A stretch of DNA of 64,000 nucleotides from Rhodococcus jostii RHA1. Its GTDB lineage: Bacteria; Actinomycetota; Actinomycetes; Mycobacteriales; Mycobacteriaceae. Shown in pieces: positions 40,926 to 48,512 of this stretch. Under the pieces are notes generated by a model. That model did no database searches and had not been told where the DNA came from. It worked only from the letters and a program-made list of their open reading frames with translations. The DNA is taken from the NCBI RefSeq assembly GCF_000014565.1, contig NC_008268.1:5150501-5214500 (forward strand), in the 5' to 3' direction. Position 1 is the first letter of the stretch; every line of letters starts with the position of its first letter. The translations under genes and the position numbers were made by a program.

Positions 40926-40965
40926 GTGAGTGCCGAAGTGTGTTCCGCCGTTCGTTGGCACTCAC
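40926..40965. repeat. Intergenic inverted repeat with GTGAGTGCC/GGCACTCAC arms
   Basis: GTGAGTGCC (40926-40934) and GGCACTCAC (40957-40965) form a perfect 9-bp stem; GAA/TTC inside can extend it. It lies 30 bases before the IclR start. The 323-base gap 40673-40995 holds nothing else that I can support. Confidence 0.6.
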
Positions 40966-40995
40966 GTGCTGGTGGGGGCGACTATCGTCGAGGGT

Positions 40996-41781
40996 ATGCG
41001 AGCGGAAGACGGCGAATTGGCCTCCAAGCACCAACCGTTGCTGGTGCTGAGCAAGATCACGGAGATCCTCGATGCCTTCAGCCTGACGCGTCCGTCGATG
41101 ACGCTGGGCGAGATCCACCAGGCGACGGGTCTGCCGACGTCGACGGTCCAACGGCTGGTCAGCAACCTGGTGGCGCAGGAATTCCTCGACCGGACCGGCG
41201 ACCAGATCCGGATCGGCGTGAAGATGGCGTTCTGGGCTGCGACGGCCACCAAGGGACTCGACGTGCTGGCTGTCGTCACGCCGGTGCTGAAGGAGATCCG
41301 CGACGCCACCGGCGAGACCGCCAGCTTCTTCCGGGTCGAGCAGGGCTACCGCGTGTGCGTGGCCATCGCGGAAACCGAGCACGCGCTGCGCCGCAACATG
41401 TACGTCGGGAAGATCGTCCCCCTGCCCGCGGGATCGGCGGGCCGGGTTCTGCTCGCCTGGAACCCGGACCTCACCGAACAGGTCCTCGCCGGCCCCATCG
41501 AGCCGATGACGGAGGGCACCGTCACCGACACCGCGGTGCTGCGCGAACTGATCCACCAGGCCCGGGCCGACGGGTACGCCATCACCGCGGGGGAGCGGGA
41601 GGACAGCGCCTCGGGATTGGCTGCGCCCGTGTTCGATTCGTCCGCCGACGTGATCGGTGCACTGGCGATCAGCGGGCCGACACTGCGCATGCCACGCGAA
41701 CAGTGCGAGAAGTGGGTGGATCTGCTCGTCGGCAGCGCCGAGCAGGTCACCCGGACGCTGGGTGGCCGCTACCCGTCATGA
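40996..41781 (+). CDS. IclR-family transcriptional regulator
   Basis: A 261-residue regulator. The N-terminal winged helix (about 15-75) includes MTLGEIHQATGLPTSTVQRL, and the C-terminal effector domain has the IclR blocks GETASFFRVEQGYRVCVAIAE, LPAGSAGRVLLAW and GEREDSASGLAAPVFD. The ATG at 40996 follows GAGGGT; a longer frame to 40930 would cross the inverted repeat and is rejected. It converges with the glycerate kinase gene, overlapping it by 35 bases. IclR proteins often control glyoxylate/glycerate and aromatic-acid genes, so control of the neighbouring operon is likely but not shown. Confidence 0.9.
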   Translation: MRAEDGELASKHQPLLVLSKITEILDAFSLTRPSMTLGEIHQATGLPTSTVQRLVSNLVAQEFLDRTGDQIRIGVKMAFWAATATKGLDVLAVVTPVLKEIRDATGETASFFRVEQGYRVCVAIAETEHALRRNMYVGKIVPLPAGSAGRVLLAWNPDLTEQVLAGPIEPMTEGTVTDTAVLRELIHQARADGYAITAGEREDSASGLAAPVFDSSADVIGALAISGPTLRMPREQCEKWVDLLVGSAEQVTRTLGGRYPS

Positions 41782-42739
41782 GTTGCGCCGCGATCGTGCG
41801 GCCGGCGTCGTGCATGGCCACGGCGTCCGTGGCGACGAGTACGCCGGCGAACCGGGACCGGTAGTCGCCGAGATCGTCGCCGACGGAGCCGACGACGGCG
41901 TACACCGGCGTGGCGCCCGCGCGGGCGAGGATCGCGGAGATGATCTTGCCCGCCTTCGTCTGTCCGTCCAGCCTGCCCTCGCCGACGACGATCGCCGACG
42001 CGTCCGCGGCCACGGTGTCGAAGCCGATCACGTCGAGGATGTAATCGGCGCCCGAGCGGAGTTCGGCGCCGTACCGTGCCCACATCCCACCGGAGAACCC
42101 GCCGGCGGCGCCGGTCGCGTCGACACTCGACGGGTCGCGGGGCAGGGCCCGCGCCTTCGCTTCGAGTTGCCGGGTGAGGAGTTGCACGGCGCCCGCGTCG
42201 GCTCCCTTCTGCGGTCCGAACACCCTGGCCGCGTCCACGTACCGGGTGGTGACGTCGGTCAGCACGGTGACGGAGGCGCCCCTGAGTCCGCCGCCCGCCT
42301 CGATGGCAGCGATGGCCCCGGTGCCGCCGTCCGTGGTGGCGGACCCGCCGGCCGCGACGACGATGCGCCGGGCACCGCGCCGGGCGGCGTCCGCGACGAG
42401 CATCCCGGTGCCGTAGGTGGTGGCGGTGACCGGGTCGCGGGGGCCGTCGTGCGGCGTGGTGATCCCGGAGGCGGCGGCGATCTCGATGACCGCGGTCCCG
42501 TCGTCGGACAGTCCGTACGTCGGCCGGCACGGACTGCCCCAGGGATTGCGGGACCGGGTGGTGATCGGGCGCAGTCCGAGGGGGACGGTGAGAACGTCGA
42601 GGGTGCCCTCACCCCCGTCGGCGACCGGCAGCCGGATCGCGGTACCGCCGGACGACTCGACCCCCGTCGCGACCGCGTCGGCGACCTCTCCGGCGGTGTA
42701 GGTGCCCTTGAAGCTGTCGGGGGCGATCAGGACGGTCAT
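41747..42739 (-). CDS. glxK: Glycerate kinase (GlxK/GarK family)
   Basis: A 330-residue kinase of the two-domain GlxK family, which makes 2-phosphoglycerate from D-glycerate and ATP. Family blocks are MTVLIAPDSFKGTYTAGEVA, LPVADGGEGTLDVL, ASGITTPHDGPRDPVTATTYG, GGSATTDGGTG and VVGEGRLDGQTKAGK. The ATG at 42739 overlaps the stop of the reductase gene (ATGA). It is the last gene of the GntP operon and delivers carbon into glycolysis. Its 3' end overlaps the convergent iclR. Confidence 0.93.
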   Translation of the reverse strand: MTVLIAPDSFKGTYTAGEVADAVATGVESSGGTAIRLPVADGGEGTLDVLTVPLGLRPITTRSRNPWGSPCRPTYGLSDDGTAVIEIAAASGITTPHDGPRDPVTATTYGTGMLVADAARRGARRIVVAAGGSATTDGGTGAIAAIEAGGGLRGASVTVLTDVTTRYVDAARVFGPQKGADAGAVQLLTRQLEAKARALPRDPSSVDATGAAGGFSGGMWARYGAELRSGADYILDVIGFDTVAADASAIVVGEGRLDGQTKAGKIISAILARAGATPVYAVVGSVGDDLGDYRSRFAGVLVATDAVAMHDAGRTIAAQLMTGSGHPASG

Positions 42740-43731
42740 GAGTTCCAGGCTTCCGGGTTCACCGGATGCGGGGGAATCCGGTGCTGCGCCAGGGCCACAG
42801 CGTTCTCGGCGCACAGCCTCGCCATCTCGGCGCGCACCGACACCGTGGCGCTGCCGAGGTGGGGGAGCAGGACCGTGTTCGACAGTTCCGCGAGCCCCGG
42901 GGCGAGCGCGGGTTCGTCCTCGTAGACGTCCAGCCCGGCCCCGGCGATCTCCCCGGATTTCAGGGCGGCGACGAGGGCGGCTTCGTCGACGACGGGACCG
43001 CGGGCGGTGTTGATCAGGATCGCGGAGGGCTTCATCGCGGCCAGTACGCCGGCGTCGACCAGGTGGCGGGTCTGTGCGTTGAGGGGCACGTGCAGCGACA
43101 GGAAGTCGCTGGTGGTGACGAGGGTGTCCCAATCGGTGTGGGTGACGAGTCCGGCGAATTCGCCGAGTTCCTCGTCCGAGACCGGCCGGTCGCCGGGCGG
43201 CCGTGGGCAGAACAGCACCTGCATCCCGAAGGCCAGTGCCCGTTTCGCGGTCGCCCGCGCGATCCGACCGAATCCGGCGAGACCGAGCGTGCGCCCCGAA
43301 ACATCCTGGCCGAGGAGCAGGTTCGGTTCCCATCCGGTGAACCGTCCGGCGCGGACGAACGTGTCGGCCTCCACGGCGCGGCGGGCGGTGGCCATGATCA
43401 GCAGCATCGCGACGTCGGCGGTGGCGTCGGTGAGCACACCGGGTGTGTTGCCGACCAGTATCGAGTTCGCGGTCGCCGCCCCGATGTCGACGTTGTTGAA
43501 CCCGACCGCGTAGTTGGAGATACCGCGGATCTTCGCGGCGGCCAGGAGATCGGCGTCGAACGTGTCGCGAAGCTGGGACACCACCACGTCGTAGTCGCCG
43601 GACACGCAGACCTCCCGCAGCCGGGCGGCGTCCGGAAGCTCGTCGGGAACGTCGACGCTGCCCGCGGCGCGCAGCAGCGTGAGAGCGGGTTCGGGGATCG
43701 GGGTGGTGACGTAGAACCGGCCGCCGCTCAT
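42736..43731 (-). CDS. D-2-hydroxyacid dehydrogenase (glyoxylate/hydroxypyruvate reductase)
   Basis: A 331-residue D-2-hydroxyacid dehydrogenase. The NAD-binding region reads LGLAGFGRIARATAKRALAF, and the catalytic Arg (NTARGPVVDE), Glu (DVYEDEP) and His (LLPHLGSAT) are all present. In this family the substrates are glyoxylate or hydroxypyruvate. Placed before a glycerate kinase, reduction of hydroxypyruvate to D-glycerate is the natural reading. It has ATGA overlaps with both neighbours, so the four enzymes are made together. Confidence 0.92.
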   Translation of the reverse strand: MSGGRFYVTTPIPEPALTLLRAAGSVDVPDELPDAARLREVCVSGDYDVVVSQLRDTFDADLLAAAKIRGISNYAVGFNNVDIGAATANSILVGNTPGVLTDATADVAMLLIMATARRAVEADTFVRAGRFTGWEPNLLLGQDVSGRTLGLAGFGRIARATAKRALAFGMQVLFCPRPPGDRPVSDEELGEFAGLVTHTDWDTLVTTSDFLSLHVPLNAQTRHLVDAGVLAAMKPSAILINTARGPVVDEAALVAALKSGEIAGAGLDVYEDEPALAPGLAELSNTVLLPHLGSATVSVRAEMARLCAENAVALAQHRIPPHPVNPEAWNS

Positions 43732-44666
43732 CGGCCGCCGCCGATGACCCACTCGAACGCGGTGGCATTGGAGCGTGCGCCCTGCGCGGCCTTGGACCGA
43801 TTGGCTTCGCCGAGTTCGGCGAGAGTCTTCTCGGACAGTTCCACGAGGGATCCGAACGTGGTGGGGTTCAGCCAGTCCGGGCGCGTGGCGAACAACAGGT
43901 CCTCGCTGGCGGTGTTGCCGCTGGCACCGGGTGCGAACGGGCAGCCGCCGAGTCCGCCGAGGGCGCCGTCGACGGTCATCGCGCCGGCCGCGACCGCGGC
44001 GAGGCTGTTCGCGACCCCGAGACCCCAGGTGTCGTGACCGTGGAAGACGATTCCGCGCTGCGGGGTTTCGAGCCGGACCCGGGAGACGAGCGAGTACACC
44101 TCGGCGGGGACGGCCTGGCCGAGGGTGTCGCAGACGACGACATCGACGGCGCCGTGGGCGCGCGGGTCGTTGGCGATGTCGATGACCCGCTGCTCCGGTA
44201 CCCGGCCCTCGAACGGGCAGGTGAACGACGTCGCGATGCACAGCTGGATGCTGCCGCCGACCTGCTGCGCGAGTTCGATCGCGGAGGGCATCGCGGCGAG
44301 GCTCTCCTCGGTGGAGCGTCCGATGTTCGCCTGATTGTGGGAATCGGAGGCGGAGAAGCAGTACTGGAAATGTCGTGCGCCGGCCGCGGCGGCCTTCTCC
44401 ACGTGCCGGGGCGTCGCCACCCACACCCAGCAGTGGTCCAGTTCATCCGGGGTCAGTTCCGAGATCACCTCGACGGTGTTCGCCATCGGCGGGACCAGGT
44501 CGGGGCGGGCCATCGACCCGATCTCCAGCGCGGGCACGCCGAGTTCGAAAAGCCGCCGGGCGATCTCGAGCTTCCGGGCGGTGGGCAGCATCTTGCCCGT
44601 CAACTGCAACCCGTCACGCAAGGTGACGTCGCGGAGCAGGGTGCGTGATTCGAAGGACTGCGTCAT
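43728..44666 (-). CDS. HMG-CoA lyase-like acyl-CoA lyase (HMGL family)
   Basis: A 312-residue enzyme of the DRE-TIM metallolyase family. It has DVTLRDGLQ at about 13-21 (metal-binding Asp and catalytic Arg), the HGHDTWG pair of metal His, and the Cys loop GGLGGCPFAPGASGN characteristic of HMG-CoA lyase. It would split a 3-hydroxy-3-carboxyalkyl-CoA into acetyl-CoA (or a homologue) and a keto acid. Flanked by a CoA-transferase and a hydroxypyruvate reductase, it may act on something other than HMG-CoA. ATGA overlaps at both ends. Confidence 0.92.
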   Translation of the reverse strand: MTQSFESRTLLRDVTLRDGLQLTGKMLPTARKLEIARRLFELGVPALEIGSMARPDLVPPMANTVEVISELTPDELDHCWVWVATPRHVEKAAAAGARHFQYCFSASDSHNQANIGRSTEESLAAMPSAIELAQQVGGSIQLCIATSFTCPFEGRVPEQRVIDIANDPRAHGAVDVVVCDTLGQAVPAEVYSLVSRVRLETPQRGIVFHGHDTWGLGVANSLAAVAAGAMTVDGALGGLGGCPFAPGASGNTASEDLLFATRPDWLNPTTFGSLVELSEKTLAELGEANRSKAAQGARSNATAFEWVIGGGR

Positions 44667-45916
44667 GAGAGGCCACCTACCGTGTCGTTGACGATGGAGT
44701 CGATCTGTTCCGGGGTCTTGCCGAGCACCGTTTCCAGGACCTCCCGGGTGTGCTCGCCGAGGTCCGGTCCGACGTTGCGGATGGGCAGCGACTTCCCACC
44801 GATGACCGGGACGATGCCGGGGAACCCGACCTGCTTCGGCTCGGCCTCACCGGTGTCGACGCTGAACTGCTGAATCATGTTGCGGGCCGCGTACTGCTCG
44901 TCGCTGCAGATGTCGGCGGCGGTGTTGATCGGACCCGACGGCACCCCGGCCGCGTCCAGGATCTTCAGCGCCTCGTCGCGCGAGTACTGAATCGTCCACC
45001 GGCCGATCGCCGTGTCGAGTTCGTCGCGGCGCGCCCACCGCCCGGCGTTGGTGGACAGGTCCGGGTCGGCACCGAGGTCGGGGCGGCCGATGGTGTCCAT
45101 GTAGCGCTGGAAGATGGCGTCACCGTTGCCGGCGATGATGATGCTGTCACCGTCGCTGCAGATGTACGCGTTCGACGGGGCGATGCCCTCCATCCGGCCG
45201 CCGACGCGTTCGCGTTTGATACCGTACGCGAGGTAGTCGGGGATCAGCGACTCCATCATCGACAGGATCGATTCGTTGAGCGCGACGTCGATGATCCGAT
45301 GCGGCAGGGACGGGCCCGGCGTTCCGGCGACCTTCGCGGCCTCCCGCTGGAACAGGGCCATCACCGCACCGAACGCCGCGTAGAGGCCGGCGATCGAGTC
45401 GCCGATCGACACCCCCACCCGCACCGGTGGCCGGTCCGGGTCGCCGACGAGTTCGCGGAATCCGCCCGCGGCCTCCGCGACCGCGGCGAACCCCGGCCGC
45501 TGCGACATCGGTCCGGTCTGCCCGAACGCGGAGATGCGGGTGATCACCAGGTCCGGATTGGCCGCGTTCAACGCGTCCGGTCCGATGCCCCACTTCTCCA
45601 GGGTGCCGGGCCGGAAGTTCTCCAGCAGGATGTCGCACTTGGCGGCGAGGTCCAGGACGAGCTGCCTGCCTTCCTCGGTGCGCAGGTCCAGCACGATCGA
45701 CTTCTTGTTGCGGTTGATCGTGCGGTACAGCATCGAGGTGTCGCCGGAGTAGAGCCGCCAGTTGCGCAGTTCGTCGCCGGTCTTCGGGCGCTCCACTTTG
45801 ATGACCTCGGCCCCGAAGTCGGCGAGCATCCGGCCCGCGGTCGGGGCGGCGATGTAATTGCCCAGCTCGAGTACCCGAACCCCGTCGAGGGGCCGAATGG
45901 TGTTGTCGGAGAACAT
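44663..45916 (-). CDS. CaiB/BaiF-family (class III) CoA-transferase
   Basis: A 417-residue CoA-transferase that should activate the organic acid imported by the GntP permease. Blocks are LDGVRVLELGNYIAAPTAGR, GAEVIKVERPKTGDELRNW, RNKKSIVLDL, LLENFRPGTLEKWGIG and the active-site Asp in RVGVSIGDSIAGLYAAFG. ATG at 45916 with AAGGATCACC upstream. It is placed directly before the HMG-CoA-lyase-like gene with an ATGA overlap, which gives the order activate then cleave. The CoA donor (succinyl-CoA or acetyl-CoA) is unknown. Confidence 0.93.
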   Translation of the reverse strand: MFSDNTIRPLDGVRVLELGNYIAAPTAGRMLADFGAEVIKVERPKTGDELRNWRLYSGDTSMLYRTINRNKKSIVLDLRTEEGRQLVLDLAAKCDILLENFRPGTLEKWGIGPDALNAANPDLVITRISAFGQTGPMSQRPGFAAVAEAAGGFRELVGDPDRPPVRVGVSIGDSIAGLYAAFGAVMALFQREAAKVAGTPGPSLPHRIIDVALNESILSMMESLIPDYLAYGIKRERVGGRMEGIAPSNAYICSDGDSIIIAGNGDAIFQRYMDTIGRPDLGADPDLSTNAGRWARRDELDTAIGRWTIQYSRDEALKILDAAGVPSGPINTAADICSDEQYAARNMIQQFSVDTGEAEPKQVGFPGIVPVIGGKSLPIRNVGPDLGEHTREVLETVLGKTPEQIDSIVNDTVGGLS

Positions 45917-45941
45917 GGTGATCCTTAACTGATAGTGACGC

Positions 45942-47381
45942 TCAGAGAACGAGGCTCATGGGCAGGACGAGCAGTATTGCGACGACCGATGCCACCGATA
46001 CTCCCACCGAACATGTCTTCAGCGTGCCTCGTGTGGTCTGACCCATCAAGGACTGCAGCAGCCAGAACGTGTTGCTCGTGACGTGCACCGCGAACAGGGA
46101 GCCGGCGCCGGCCGCGAGGGCGATGAGGACGGGGTCGAGGCCGAGGGTCGGTGCGATGGGTGCGAGGACGCCCGCGGCGGTGATGGCGGAGATGGTCACC
46201 GAGCCGACGGCGACGTGCAGGACGGCGGCGATCACCCAGACCATGAGCAGCGGAGCGGCGTGATTGGCGGTGAAGTACTTGCCGAGGATGTCGCCGAGGC
46301 CGACGGCTGCGATCGTCGCGGCGAGGGACCCGCCGACGCCGGTGAGGATGAGGATCTGGCCGCTCTCGCTGAAACCGCTGGCGATCGCCTTCTGGATGCG
46401 GTGCTGGCCGACGGTGAGGCGTCCGACGAAGCTGGTGCCGATCAGTCCGATCAGCAACGCGATGAGCGGCTCGGACACGAACGCGACGACCGGATTGGTG
46501 ATCTCGGCGATGTCCAGGATCGCGCCGGTCGCGATGAGCAGGAGGGAAACGAGCAGCGGAGCGAGGAGCAGGATGAGGGGGCGGTCGTGCGCCGCGCGCC
46601 CGGCCGTGACCTCGGTGACGGTCGCGGCGCGTTGCGCCTGGGCGACGCCGCCGCCGGCGTCGGGCCGCGGGGTGGTCCCGCCGCTGCCGCCGTCGGTCCG
46701 CTGGTCTTCTTCGTCGTCGACGACCGTCTGATGGAAGTGCTCTTCGTCCTTCTCCGGGTTCCACCAACCGCGGGTGAACAGGAACGACATGATCGCGACC
46801 GAGATCGCCACGGTCGGGATCACCAGAATGAGTCCGAAGATCAGCATCTTGCCGAGCGGCACACCGAGAAGTCCGGCGAGGGCGAGGGCGCCGACACCGG
46901 GAACCATGAGCACGATGCCGCACTCCAGGCCGATGGCGAGGGCGGTGGCCATGCGTGCGGTCCCGACCCGGCCGACCTTCGGGGCGAGGTTGCGGGCGAG
47001 CGGGGCGGAGATGACGAGCAGGACGTCGAGGAAGATGGACTGCAGCAACGTCGCGATCGTCAGCGATAGCGCATAGGGCATTCGTTTCGGCCCGAACACG
47101 CGCAGAAGTGTCCCGACCAGGCGCTGGATCGCGCCCATTTCTTTCAGCATGGCGCCCATCAGGACGCCGAAGGCGATCAGAAGTCCCACTTCGGCCATGA
47201 TGTCGCCGAAGCCGGTGCTGATGACGTCCACCGTTTCGGCCGTGCCGAGTCCCGTCGTGAGTCCGAGGTAGGCGGATCCGACGACCAGTGACACCACTGG
47301 GTTGAACTTGAAACGCACGATCATCAGAACGACCGCCGCTACGGCGACCGTGGTGTTGATCAGGATTGCTACGTCTGACAT
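45942..47381 (-). CDS. GntP-family gluconate/hydroxy-acid permease
   Basis: A 479-residue symporter with about thirteen membrane segments and an acidic Gly-rich cytoplasmic loop at about 220-260. GntP hallmarks are GFGDIMAEVGLLIAFGVLMG, EMGAIQRLV, the paired SGQILILTGVGGSL, and HVTSNTFWLLQSL. Members import gluconate, glycerate or other hydroxy acids with protons. ATG at 47381. It is the first gene of a five-gene minus-strand operon and probably imports its substrate. It is divergent from an AraC regulator. Confidence 0.92.
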   Translation of the reverse strand: MSDVAILINTTVAVAAVVLMIVRFKFNPVVSLVVGSAYLGLTTGLGTAETVDVISTGFGDIMAEVGLLIAFGVLMGAMLKEMGAIQRLVGTLLRVFGPKRMPYALSLTIATLLQSIFLDVLLVISAPLARNLAPKVGRVGTARMATALAIGLECGIVLMVPGVGALALAGLLGVPLGKMLIFGLILVIPTVAISVAIMSFLFTRGWWNPEKDEEHFHQTVVDDEEDQRTDGGSGGTTPRPDAGGGVAQAQRAATVTEVTAGRAAHDRPLILLLAPLLVSLLLIATGAILDIAEITNPVVAFVSEPLIALLIGLIGTSFVGRLTVGQHRIQKAIASGFSESGQILILTGVGGSLAATIAAVGLGDILGKYFTANHAAPLLMVWVIAAVLHVAVGSVTISAITAAGVLAPIAPTLGLDPVLIALAAGAGSLFAVHVTSNTFWLLQSLMGQTTRGTLKTCSVGVSVASVVAILLVLPMSLVL

Positions 47382-47504
47382 GTGCGCGTCCTTATCGAGG
47401 AGGCGGGGTAGTGACTGGTGTCACAGGTACACCCATATTATGAGCACACACTCACGATATAAGCAATGGGCCTCCGAAGGGCCTGCGGGTGGGATACTCG
47501 ACGC
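47382..47504. promoter_or_regulatory. Divergent gntP/araC promoter region
   Basis: On the minus strand TAATAT (47440-47435) is a good -10 for gntP, with the palindrome GAGTGTGTGCTC just upstream. GGTGTCACAGGTACACC is an inverted repeat between it and the gene. On the plus strand GATACT ends six bases before the AraC ATG, as in leaderless messages. These are the likely operators of the AraC or IclR regulator. Confidence 0.45.
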
Positions 47505-48512
47505 ATGGTCGCGCTGGATCCGTTTGCTGTGGGACGGCCACCGGCCGCCGAGCGCAGAACGTCGGAGGACTGGAGCGAGATCCAGCTCTGGTCCGACCGC
47601 GTGTACATGCCCTATGTCGTGCGTCCGCTCGGTGTCGGGCTGTCGCCCCGGTCGAGCATGTACTCCACGAAGATCGGCGACATCACCGTCACCCGGTTCT
47701 CCTACGGAATCCCCGTCTCGGTCGGCGACTTCTCGTCCGACGCCGGAAACGCGCTCGTCCTCACGACCATTCGGGGCAACGCCCGGCACCACCTCGACCA
47801 CGACGCCACCGCGGACACACCGGCGGGCGACACGTTCGTCGCCGACTGCAGTCGCGTCGACTACCTCGTCGAGTTCTCGCCCGACCACGTCCAGCTCAAT
47901 CTCACCGTTCCCCACACGCTGCTCGCGGACACGGCCGTGCGGTGGTGGGGATTCGACCCCGGAGGTCTTCTCTGGCAACGCAAATGCGTCATCGGGGGCG
48001 GTGGATCCGGCTGGCAGGCCCTGCTCGGGTACGCCATGCGGACGACGGGAGAGCTACCCGGACACGCCACCGAGGGGCGCATCGGTCTCAACCTGCAGGA
48101 GTTGCTGGTCGGTCACCTGCTCACCGAATGGGCGGCTCGCGCCGGAGTGGACCCGGACAGGTCCACCGGCCCGGCGGCGCCCGGCTATGTGCGGCACGCC
48201 GTCCAGTACATCCGGGAGTACGCCCGCGAACTGCCGACCGCCTCCGACATCGCCGACGCGGTGGGGGTCAGCGTCCGGACCCTGTCCGGGGCGTTCCGGA
48301 AATACCTCGACACCACGCCCGCCGAATACGTGCGTGAGCAGCGACTCCAGGGCATCCGCGAGGAACTGCTCACCGCATCACCGGGGGAGACCGTCGCCTC
48401 GATCGCCGGCGCGTGGGGATACGTCAACCTCGGCCTCTTCGCGGCGGCCTACCGTCGCCGGTTCGGCGAGAATCCGTCGCAGACCAGGGCCTTCGGCCCC
48501 GTGAGTGGTTGA
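47505..48512 (+). CDS. AraC-family transcriptional regulator
   Basis: A 335-residue regulator. An N-terminal AraC-binding-like domain (about 1-210, NphR/FeaR type) is followed by a two-helix-turn-helix AraC domain at about 230-335 (LPTASDIADAVGVSVRTLSG, RKYLDTTPAEYVREQRLQGI, WGYVNLGLFAAAYRRRFGE). The ATG at 47505 is chosen; the frame is open to 47466 but a -10-like element lies between. It is divergent from the GntP operon and probably its activator. The stop lies inside a bidirectional terminator. Confidence 0.92.
   Translation: MVALDPFAVGRPPAAERRTSEDWSEIQLWSDRVYMPYVVRPLGVGLSPRSSMYSTKIGDITVTRFSYGIPVSVGDFSSDAGNALVLTTIRGNARHHLDHDATADTPAGDTFVADCSRVDYLVEFSPDHVQLNLTVPHTLLADTAVRWWGFDPGGLLWQRKCVIGGGGSGWQALLGYAMRTTGELPGHATEGRIGLNLQELLVGHLLTEWAARAGVDPDRSTGPAAPGYVRHAVQYIREYARELPTASDIADAVGVSVRTLSGAFRKYLDTTPAEYVREQRLQGIREELLTASPGETVASIAGAWGYVNLGLFAAAYRRRFGENPSQTRAFGPVSG

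Follow-up and report, generated by a model that had tools for sequence, protein, structure and literature searches.

The operon and its genes

The window analyzed here is a stretch of 64,000 nucleotides from Rhodococcus jostii RHA1 (NC_008268.1, positions 5,150,501 to 5,214,500), and its minus strand carries five genes (41747-47381) for a GntP-family permease, a coenzyme A (CoA)-transferase (CoAT), a CoA-ester lyase of the HMGL fold, a dehydrogenase of the hydroxypyruvate reductase type (HPR), and a glycerate kinase (GK) (Table 1). Three ATGA overlaps (CoAT/HMGL, HMGL/HPR, and HPR/GK) link the enzyme genes, and 25 bp separate gntP from CoAT. An earlier note on this DNA had proposed a gntP-CoAT-HMGL-HPR-GK operon, which is confirmed by the gene coordinates, the overlaps, and the Pfam and NCBIfam families of the products; its statement that the four enzyme genes overlap by ATGA is correct if read as three overlaps among four genes. 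The unit reaches beyond the coordinates first given, for it includes an operator ahead of gntP and a convergent IclR gene, which shares its last 35 bp with the end of the kinase gene. The operon may well serve to degrade a 2-hydroxy-2-(hydroxymethyl) dicarboxylic acid with release of hydroxypyruvate, a reading on which we see the balance as roughly even. No report of the five-gene operon was found in the open-access literature searched.

Table 1. Features of the operon and its surroundings (window coordinates)
Feature	Position	Strand	Remarks
GntP-family permease (predicted hydroxy-acid importer)	45942..47381	-	479 aa; PF02447 227 bits vs cut-off 22.5
Class III CoA-transferase (CoAT; predicted acid activation)	44663..45916	-	417 aa; PF02515 369 bits vs 23.3
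HMGL-fold CoA-ester lyase, distinct subfamily	43728..44666	-	312 aa; PF00682 139 bits vs 29
D-2-hydroxyacid dehydrogenase, glyoxylate/hydroxypyruvate reductase type (HPR)	42736..43731, ATG at 43731	-	331 aa; NF009714 303 bits
Glycerate kinase (GK)	41747..42739	-	330 aa; TIGR00045 214.9 bits vs cut-off 168.45
IclR-family regulator, convergent with the operon	40930..41781; alternative ATG 40996	+	PF01614 and PF09339
Operator/promoter element TGAGTGTGTGCTCATAATAT	47435..47454	-	inverted repeat TGAG-N6-CTCA, then TAATAT; 53 bp before gntP
AraC/AndR-like regulator gene, divergent from gntP	47466-48512		common intergenic operator region

The lyase

Judged by its sequence, the lyase forms a discrete subfamily distinct from canonical hydroxymethylglutaryl-CoA (HMG-CoA) lyase. 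It scores 190 bits against the HMG-CoA lyase model NF004283 (PRK05692), below the cut-off of 246. Subfamily conservation was assessed in 124 sequences (that of the window, the best 120 database matches, and three others; near-duplicates were kept). The catalytic set R17, D18, E48, D180, T181, H209, H211, C242, N251, and E255 is kept in all 124; the catalytic and metal-binding residues of human HMG-CoA lyase are R41, D42, E72, H233, H235, C266, N275, and E279, and the positions aligned to this set are conserved in all 124 sequences and in human 2cw6. A further set of putative pocket residues (M52, A53, R54, W82, T85, C103, Q184, and W214) is fixed in 122 to 124 of the 124 and found in none of nine other HMGL sequences, human HMGCL included. 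Arg165 is an important residue of the human enzyme; at this position the subfamily has Gln (107), Glu (15), or Gly (2), and since seven of the nine other HMGL sequences also lack Arg, the exchange was dropped as proof of a different substrate. A role as the canonical HMG-CoA lyase of leucine breakdown is made less probable by the score and by the subfamily's own putative pocket residues. For Mycobacterium tuberculosis, the HMG-CoA step of leucine breakdown is assigned to an enzyme unrelated in sequence to the HMGL fold (PMC6689899).

At E 1e-90 or better, the subfamily is present in 146 of 351 genomes of the window's own family and in 46 of 245 genomes of family f18 (Micrococcaceae-like). At E 1e-75 or better it is found in 13 of 394 genomes of the class, all 13 at 3.8e-160 or better. 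Named database records label its members hydroxymethylglutaryl-CoA lyase. The next HMGL-like protein in the R. jostii genome is 35 percent identical to the lyase. The genome holds another transferase-lyase pair about 171 kb away (L057:8436-10404; identities of 53 and 35 percent), and upstream of this pair an IclR-like gene with an identity of 26 percent.

Gene order in related genomes

The named loci sampled are the best 80 of 337, some truncated by contig ends, with orthologs mapped by tblastn at >50 percent identity. The CoA-transferase is present, and adjoins the lyase, in 78; IclR occurs in 39, HPR in 33, GntP in 31 (near the CoA-transferase), and the kinase in five. Among the 16 own-family loci examined (L037-L052), the full five-gene order is found in five (L037, L039, L042, L043, and L044), and the kinase is absent from another five (L038, L040, L041, L045, and L046; only a fragment of gntP lies within the stretch of L038). 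L047-L051 keep the transferase-lyase pair without GntP, HPR, or kinase orthologs, and in L052 the lyase is accompanied by a transferase-like gene (43 percent identity) on the opposite strand. Thirty of the 46 matches in f18 were mapped (L161-L190); four regions (L162, L163, L164, and L168) have the full order, and seven have HPR. The comparative survey thus finds the five-gene order in both families, from which we conclude that the operon is a real unit and its gene order not due to chance.

The neighbours of the pair vary. In ten loci from Cryobacterium, Paenarthrobacter, and other f18 members lacking a nearby GntP, the pair is preceded by an ABC transporter of NMT1/SsuA appearance (named by eye; the binding protein has no NCBIfam match), which also lies beside the GntP loci L161 and L162. 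A PRK07229-type aconitase precedes the transferase in L179, L080 (=L194), and L141 (743 versus 612 bits for L179, the one scored). In Mycolicibacterium sp. P9-64, genes for a PrpB-like lyase, a LeuC-like protein, and a LeuD/DmdB-like protein stand directly before gntP-CoAT-HMGL-IclR (L118:2411-5140), as if they formed a second, non-CoA route for the same class of acid. Such neighbours fit the isomerisation of 2-substituted malates, and in these four genomes they suggest substrates of that class generally.

Other gene groups were observed beside the pair. In several Nocardia loci (e.g., L120:4646-6447), CoAT-HMGL is preceded by genes for a TauD-like dioxygenase and a TIM-barrel protein resembling AP endonuclease 2 (the latter named by eye), and the same type of TIM barrel precedes the lyase in Aldersonia (L096 and L121). 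In an f18 locus, methylenetetrahydrofolate reductase- and formyl-THF deformylase-like genes (by eye) lie upstream of gntP and are co-directional with it (L151:12851-14654).

The accompanying proteins

GntP scores 201 bits against the gluconate:H+ symporter model TIGR00791, below its cut-off of 292.75, and exceeds that of the superfamily model PF02447. The NCBIfam model nearest to the CoA-transferase is succinate-glutarate CoA-transferase, with a score below the model cut-off; the solved relatives of the transferase include succinate-hydroxymethylglutarate CoA-transferase (SUGCT). Alignment of GVSIGDSIAG with GVAMTDLATG of SUGCT reveals that the conserved Asp, the catalytic residue of SUGCT, is present.

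HPR scores 303.2 bits against the glyoxylate reductase model NF009714 (cut-off 455) and 218 bits against the GhrB model NF011938 (cut-off 492), below the cut-off in both cases; its scores on phosphoglycerate dehydrogenase models are lower still than that on NF009714. Among solved structures, the best matches to HPR are glyoxylate reductases and D-glycerate dehydrogenase. The solved relatives of the glycerate kinase are 3cwc and 1to6, and its subtype is 55-100 percent identical within itself versus at most 48 percent to other glycerate kinases of the same genomes.

Co-occurrence of reductase and kinase with the lyase

Co-occurrence was counted in the same 351 genomes of the own family, with the HPR type defined at E 1e-110 and the kinase type at E 1e-60, thresholds chosen after score gaps had been seen. 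Fisher tests on these counts, and on the association of operator and IclR described below, take no account of shared ancestry and serve for description only. The HPR type is found in 61 genomes and the kinase type in 34. The lyase is present in 49 of the 61 HPR genomes, and in all 49 HPR sits behind it at a distance of at most 100 bp. It is likewise present in 32 of the 34 kinase genomes, within 15 kb of the kinase in 31 and, in the last, with the match at the end of another contig.

In genus g206 the kinase follows the lyase directly, without the reductase (at most 100 bp in 16 genomes); no g206 genome is among the HPR matches at E 1e-110, and none of the eight mapped loci (L199, L213, L214, L215, L222, L230, L231, and L232) holds HPR. 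Of these eight, L215 alone was seen to have CoAT. In eight genomes of genus g33, Nocardia-like in its gene context, the kinase lies 7-12 kb from the lyase, and in the five mapped loci (L203, L204, L205, L218, and L233) it is preceded by genes for an aldehyde dehydrogenase and a tartrate dehydrogenase, the latter scoring 488 bits against a TIGR02089 cut-off of 470 in L203, the one tested. A gene resembling that for TtuC, a tartrate dehydrogenase, is divergent from gntP in L183; tartrate dehydrogenase has no match in the Rhodococcus or Micrococcaceae-like five-gene loci. Another genome of the window's genus (G011; L206:8355-10940) has an aldolase-HPR-kinase group without CoA-transferase or lyase. 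The aldolase is of the 4-carboxy-4-hydroxy-2-oxoadipate type (NF006731, 202 versus 179 bits, over a 208-residue stretch); this type, too, liberates a 2-keto acid from a tertiary alcohol, and the group is a possible hydroxypyruvate-releasing operon.

The lyase, the G011 aldolase, and the g33 tartrate dehydrogenase could each, in principle, release a C3 hydroxy-keto acid or glycerate. Because three different enzymes thus stand beside the same reductase and/or kinase types, hydroxypyruvate is favoured as the product of the lyase, an assignment that we would place about midway between doubt and acceptance. The earlier note's picture of one dedicated catabolic unit, with a non-canonical lyase and hydroxypyruvate/glycerate partners, gains from the presence of the kinase subtype with the lyase in several genera, whether the reductase is there or not. 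Its central idea, that the lyase releases hydroxypyruvate, is supported by the comparisons with regard to the product more than to the identity of the substrate.

Regulator and operator

Gibbs sampling of 39 non-redundant gntP upstream regions (63 in all) converged on TGAGTNTNTGCTCATAATAT, 39-91 bp before gntP; one site per sequence is placed by design, so its occurrence in 39 of 39 is no test. The window operator has a score of 32.3; apart from its palindrome read on the opposite strand, no site in the window exceeds 10, and the next unrelated one reaches 8.5. At a score of at least 14 the operator is found in 45 of 46 gntP loci, the exception being L172. The relation to IclR was scored in 105 loci (out of 110, three having too short an upstream region and two no transferase match): a site precedes the operon in 52 of 62 loci with IclR versus 1 of 43 without. 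The matrix used for this count and for the window and locus scans was partly trained on the same loci. A cross-test was therefore made, with training on one family group, testing on the other, and a 1 percent threshold from shuffled upstream regions. Among the f18 loci, a site was recovered in 12 of 15 with IclR and GntP, 4 of 10 with IclR only, 1 of 1 with GntP only, and 0 of 4 with neither; among the named loci (L067-L146), the figures were 29 of 30 with both, 4 of 7 with IclR only, and 0 of 38 with neither. The operator is thus recovered across families, with the matrix coming from one and the test loci from the other.

With at most two mismatches allowed, the operator pattern has one match per genome in 11 of 12 genomes and none in G528, looser sites escaping such a search; the reversed control pattern has no match in the 12. 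In six loci with IclR and no GntP, the operator stands before CoAT (L095, L099, L116, L142, L166, and L171), and in three with IclR and no site before the transferase (L180, L181, and L189) a site is present in the interval from iclR to the ABC transporter genes. Regulation of the operon by a dedicated IclR protein is very likely; this protein presumably binds the operator listed in Table 1 and appears to have one target, and the single match per genome, together with the link to IclR, fits one dedicated pathway. The divergent AraC gene is not favoured as the regulator, its ortholog being beside the operon in 3 of the 80 named loci versus 39 for IclR.

The proposed pathway and its substrate

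In the proposed scheme, GntP would import the acid and the class III CoA-transferase would load CoA onto the carboxyl that adjoins the CH2 group. Cleavage of the tertiary alcohol by the HMGL-fold lyase would then give hydroxypyruvate and acetyl-CoA, the dehydrogenase would reduce hydroxypyruvate to D-glycerate, and the kinase would convert this to phosphoglycerate, with IclR presumably controlling an operon dedicated to catabolism of the acid. We infer every substrate and product in this scheme from the sequences.

A lyase that gives hydroxypyruvate and an acyl-CoA needs a substrate of the form HOOC-C(OH)(CH2OH)-CHR-CO-CoA, which with R = H is itatartaryl-CoA. Itatartarate (2-hydroxy-2-(hydroxymethyl)succinate) is hence the simplest candidate and our best single guess, a tentative one. 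The characterised HMGL-fold enzymes are described as (S)-HMG-CoA lyases, and (S)-citramalyl-CoA as the spatial match of (R)-HMG-CoA (PMC6689899). From the latter statement it can be derived by the Cahn-Ingold-Prelog (CIP) rules that the spatial arrangement is the same in (S)-HMG-CoA, (R)-citramalyl-CoA, and (S)-itatartaryl-CoA; by these priorities, (S)-itatartaryl-CoA is the form that an HMGL-fold lyase should take. The (S)-citramalyl-CoA lyase of the itaconate route would not cleave it. The lactone of itatartarate, (S)-2-hydroxyparaconate, is a product of smut fungi (PMC9875883); its hydrolysis yields itatartarate (PMC9875883, PMC11626831), and saponification of the Ustilago-derived lactone is a way to prepare the acid (PMC11626831). 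Pseudomonas putida equipped with the PA0879-0886 cassette failed to grow on 2-hydroxyparaconate mixed with itatartarate, for which the authors suggest dead-end CoA esters (PMC9875883). The itaconate CoA-transferase of Cupriavidus necator is active with (S)-citramalate and inactive with (R)-citramalate (PMC12290011). A bacterial pathway for itatartarate and, after hydrolysis of the lactone, for fungal 2-hydroxyparaconate, with an (S)-specific HMGL-fold itatartaryl-CoA lyase, is possible rather than probable. No description of a bacterial route of itatartarate breakdown was found in the open-access literature searched.

Several observations weigh against hydroxypyruvate release by the lyase. In 34 of the 80 named loci, the transferase and lyase have no HPR, kinase, GntP, or IclR alongside them, Rhodococcus marinonascens being such a case with a lyase 89 percent identical to that of the window, and the kinase subtype is found in 5 of the 80 loci versus 33 for HPR. 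At the thresholds applied, this HPR and this kinase subtype are both missing altogether from genomes G007 and G012. The best-scoring class for the reductase is glyoxylate reductase. Twelve of the 61 HPR genomes lack the lyase, and all 12 loci were inspected: six from genus g6 (L210, L217, L221, L226, L227, and L228) have the transferase followed by HPR and no lyase of the subfamily, the best other HMGL in these genomes being at most 36 percent identical; one (L225) stops at a contig edge; and in five (L206, L208, L209, L211, and L212) HPR is in other company. The kinase subtype also occurs in lyase-free clusters of two f18 genomes (L219:8838-14170 and L220:4844-10079), which also contain LacI-type regulator-, MFS transporter-, and short-chain dehydrogenase-like genes (by eye) and a gene for a beta-keto acid cleavage enzyme (that of L219 scoring above the NF053538 cut-off), in what looks like another catabolic unit. 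In g33, the tartrate dehydrogenase beside the kinase would explain glycerate without the lyase, and the operator is absent near the aldehyde dehydrogenase-tartrate dehydrogenase-kinase cluster in a scan at score 11 (L203, L204, L218, and L233), which leaves shared regulation of this cluster and the lyase cluster unsupported.

The pair-only loci and the scarcity of the kinase also speak for a different 2-substituted malate or 3-hydroxy acid, with a reductase that handles glyoxylate or is auxiliary and a kinase that is incidental. Kinship of the transferase to succinate-glutarate and succinate-HMG CoA-transferases and of the reductase to glyoxylate reductases agrees with this, and the aconitase or LeuCD neighbours fit any such acid. 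The candidates, unlikely even when taken together, are (R)-citramalate (giving pyruvate and acetyl-CoA), 3-hydroxy-3-methylglutarate (acetoacetate and acetyl-CoA), and malate (glyoxylate and acetyl-CoA). However, neither pyruvate nor acetoacetate needs a reductase or a glycerate kinase, HMG-CoA is disfavoured by the sub-cut-off score of the lyase, and the alternative as a whole leaves aside the constant position of HPR behind the lyase and the tracking of the lyase by the kinase subtype in several genera. Itatartarate, inferred as the substrate in the earlier note, is a candidate and not refuted; the pair alone in so many loci and neighbours that point to 2-substituted malates generally count against its firm identification.

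One transcript might also join two modules, GntP-HPR-GK salvaging glycerate, hydroxypyruvate, or tartrate and CoAT-HMGL acting on an unrelated acid. The pair does occur alone, HPR-GK is found without it (L206), and the kinase keeps company with a beta-keto acid cleavage enzyme (L219 and L220) or tartrate dehydrogenase (g33). We nevertheless consider this improbable, given that no more than 100 bp separate HPR from the lyase in 49 of 49 genomes, that all five genes follow one operator, and that this operator sits before CoAT in the IclR-keeping loci that lack GntP. A tartrate-type route, in which tartryl-CoA would be cleaved to glyoxylate and glycolyl-CoA, the reductase would make glycolate, and the kinase would serve glycerate from tartrate dehydrogenase, could draw on the five g33 loci, the TtuC-like gene in L183, and the glyoxylate reductase type of HPR, but is very improbable, as the five-gene loci of Rhodococcus and Micrococcaceae-like genomes have no match to tartrate dehydrogenase, HMGL-fold lyases characterised to our knowledge act on tertiary alcohols, and the CoA route is unnecessary where tartrate dehydrogenase alone yields glycerate or hydroxypyruvate.

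Were hydroxypyruvate release from itatartarate correct, the operon would represent a new lyase route for branched dicarboxylates and explain a subfamily now labelled hydroxymethylglutaryl-CoA lyase. Itatartarate and 2-hydroxyparaconate would gain a biological fate, none having been found reported in the literature consulted, and the operon could be the response of actinobacteria in soil to an antibacterial compound made by fungi. R. jostii RHA1 is a tractable laboratory strain, and a sensor for acids of this kind could be built from IclR and its operator.

Comparison with known systems

The itaconate degradation pathway (Ict, Ich, and Ccl; P. aeruginosa PA0878-0886) resembles the proposed one in acting on a branched C5 dicarboxylate by means of a CoA-transferase and a CoA-ester lyase, with acetyl-CoA and a 2-keto acid as products. 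It has its own (S)-citramalyl-CoA lyase, which we take to be PA0883, of the CitE fold, acting after a hydratase, whereas the Rhodococcus operon has an HMGL-fold lyase and no hydratase, followed by the reductase and kinase. With HMG-CoA lyase (human HMGCL, P. aeruginosa PA2011) and its SUGCT-type transferase, the operon shares the fold, the catalytic and metal-ligand residues, and a related adjacent CoA-transferase; the Rhodococcus lyase differs in its score (190 versus 246), its own putative pocket residues, and its reductase and glycerate kinase partners.

Tartrate catabolism, comprising TtuC, the hydroxypyruvate reductase TtuD, and glycerate kinase, has the same hydroxypyruvate to D-glycerate to phosphoglycerate end. 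There hydroxypyruvate comes from tartrate dehydrogenase, whereas a CoA-ester lyase is proposed as its source here, and TtuC is absent from the Rhodococcus operon. The serine cycle also includes hydroxypyruvate reductase, glycerate kinase, and a CoA-ester lyase, malyl-CoA lyase, and so shares the reduction and phosphorylation steps. Its lyase is of another fold, and the Rhodococcus operon lacks serine-glyoxylate transaminase and malate thiokinase; with its permease and local IclR regulator, the operon looks like a substrate-induced catabolic unit, unlike the serine cycle.

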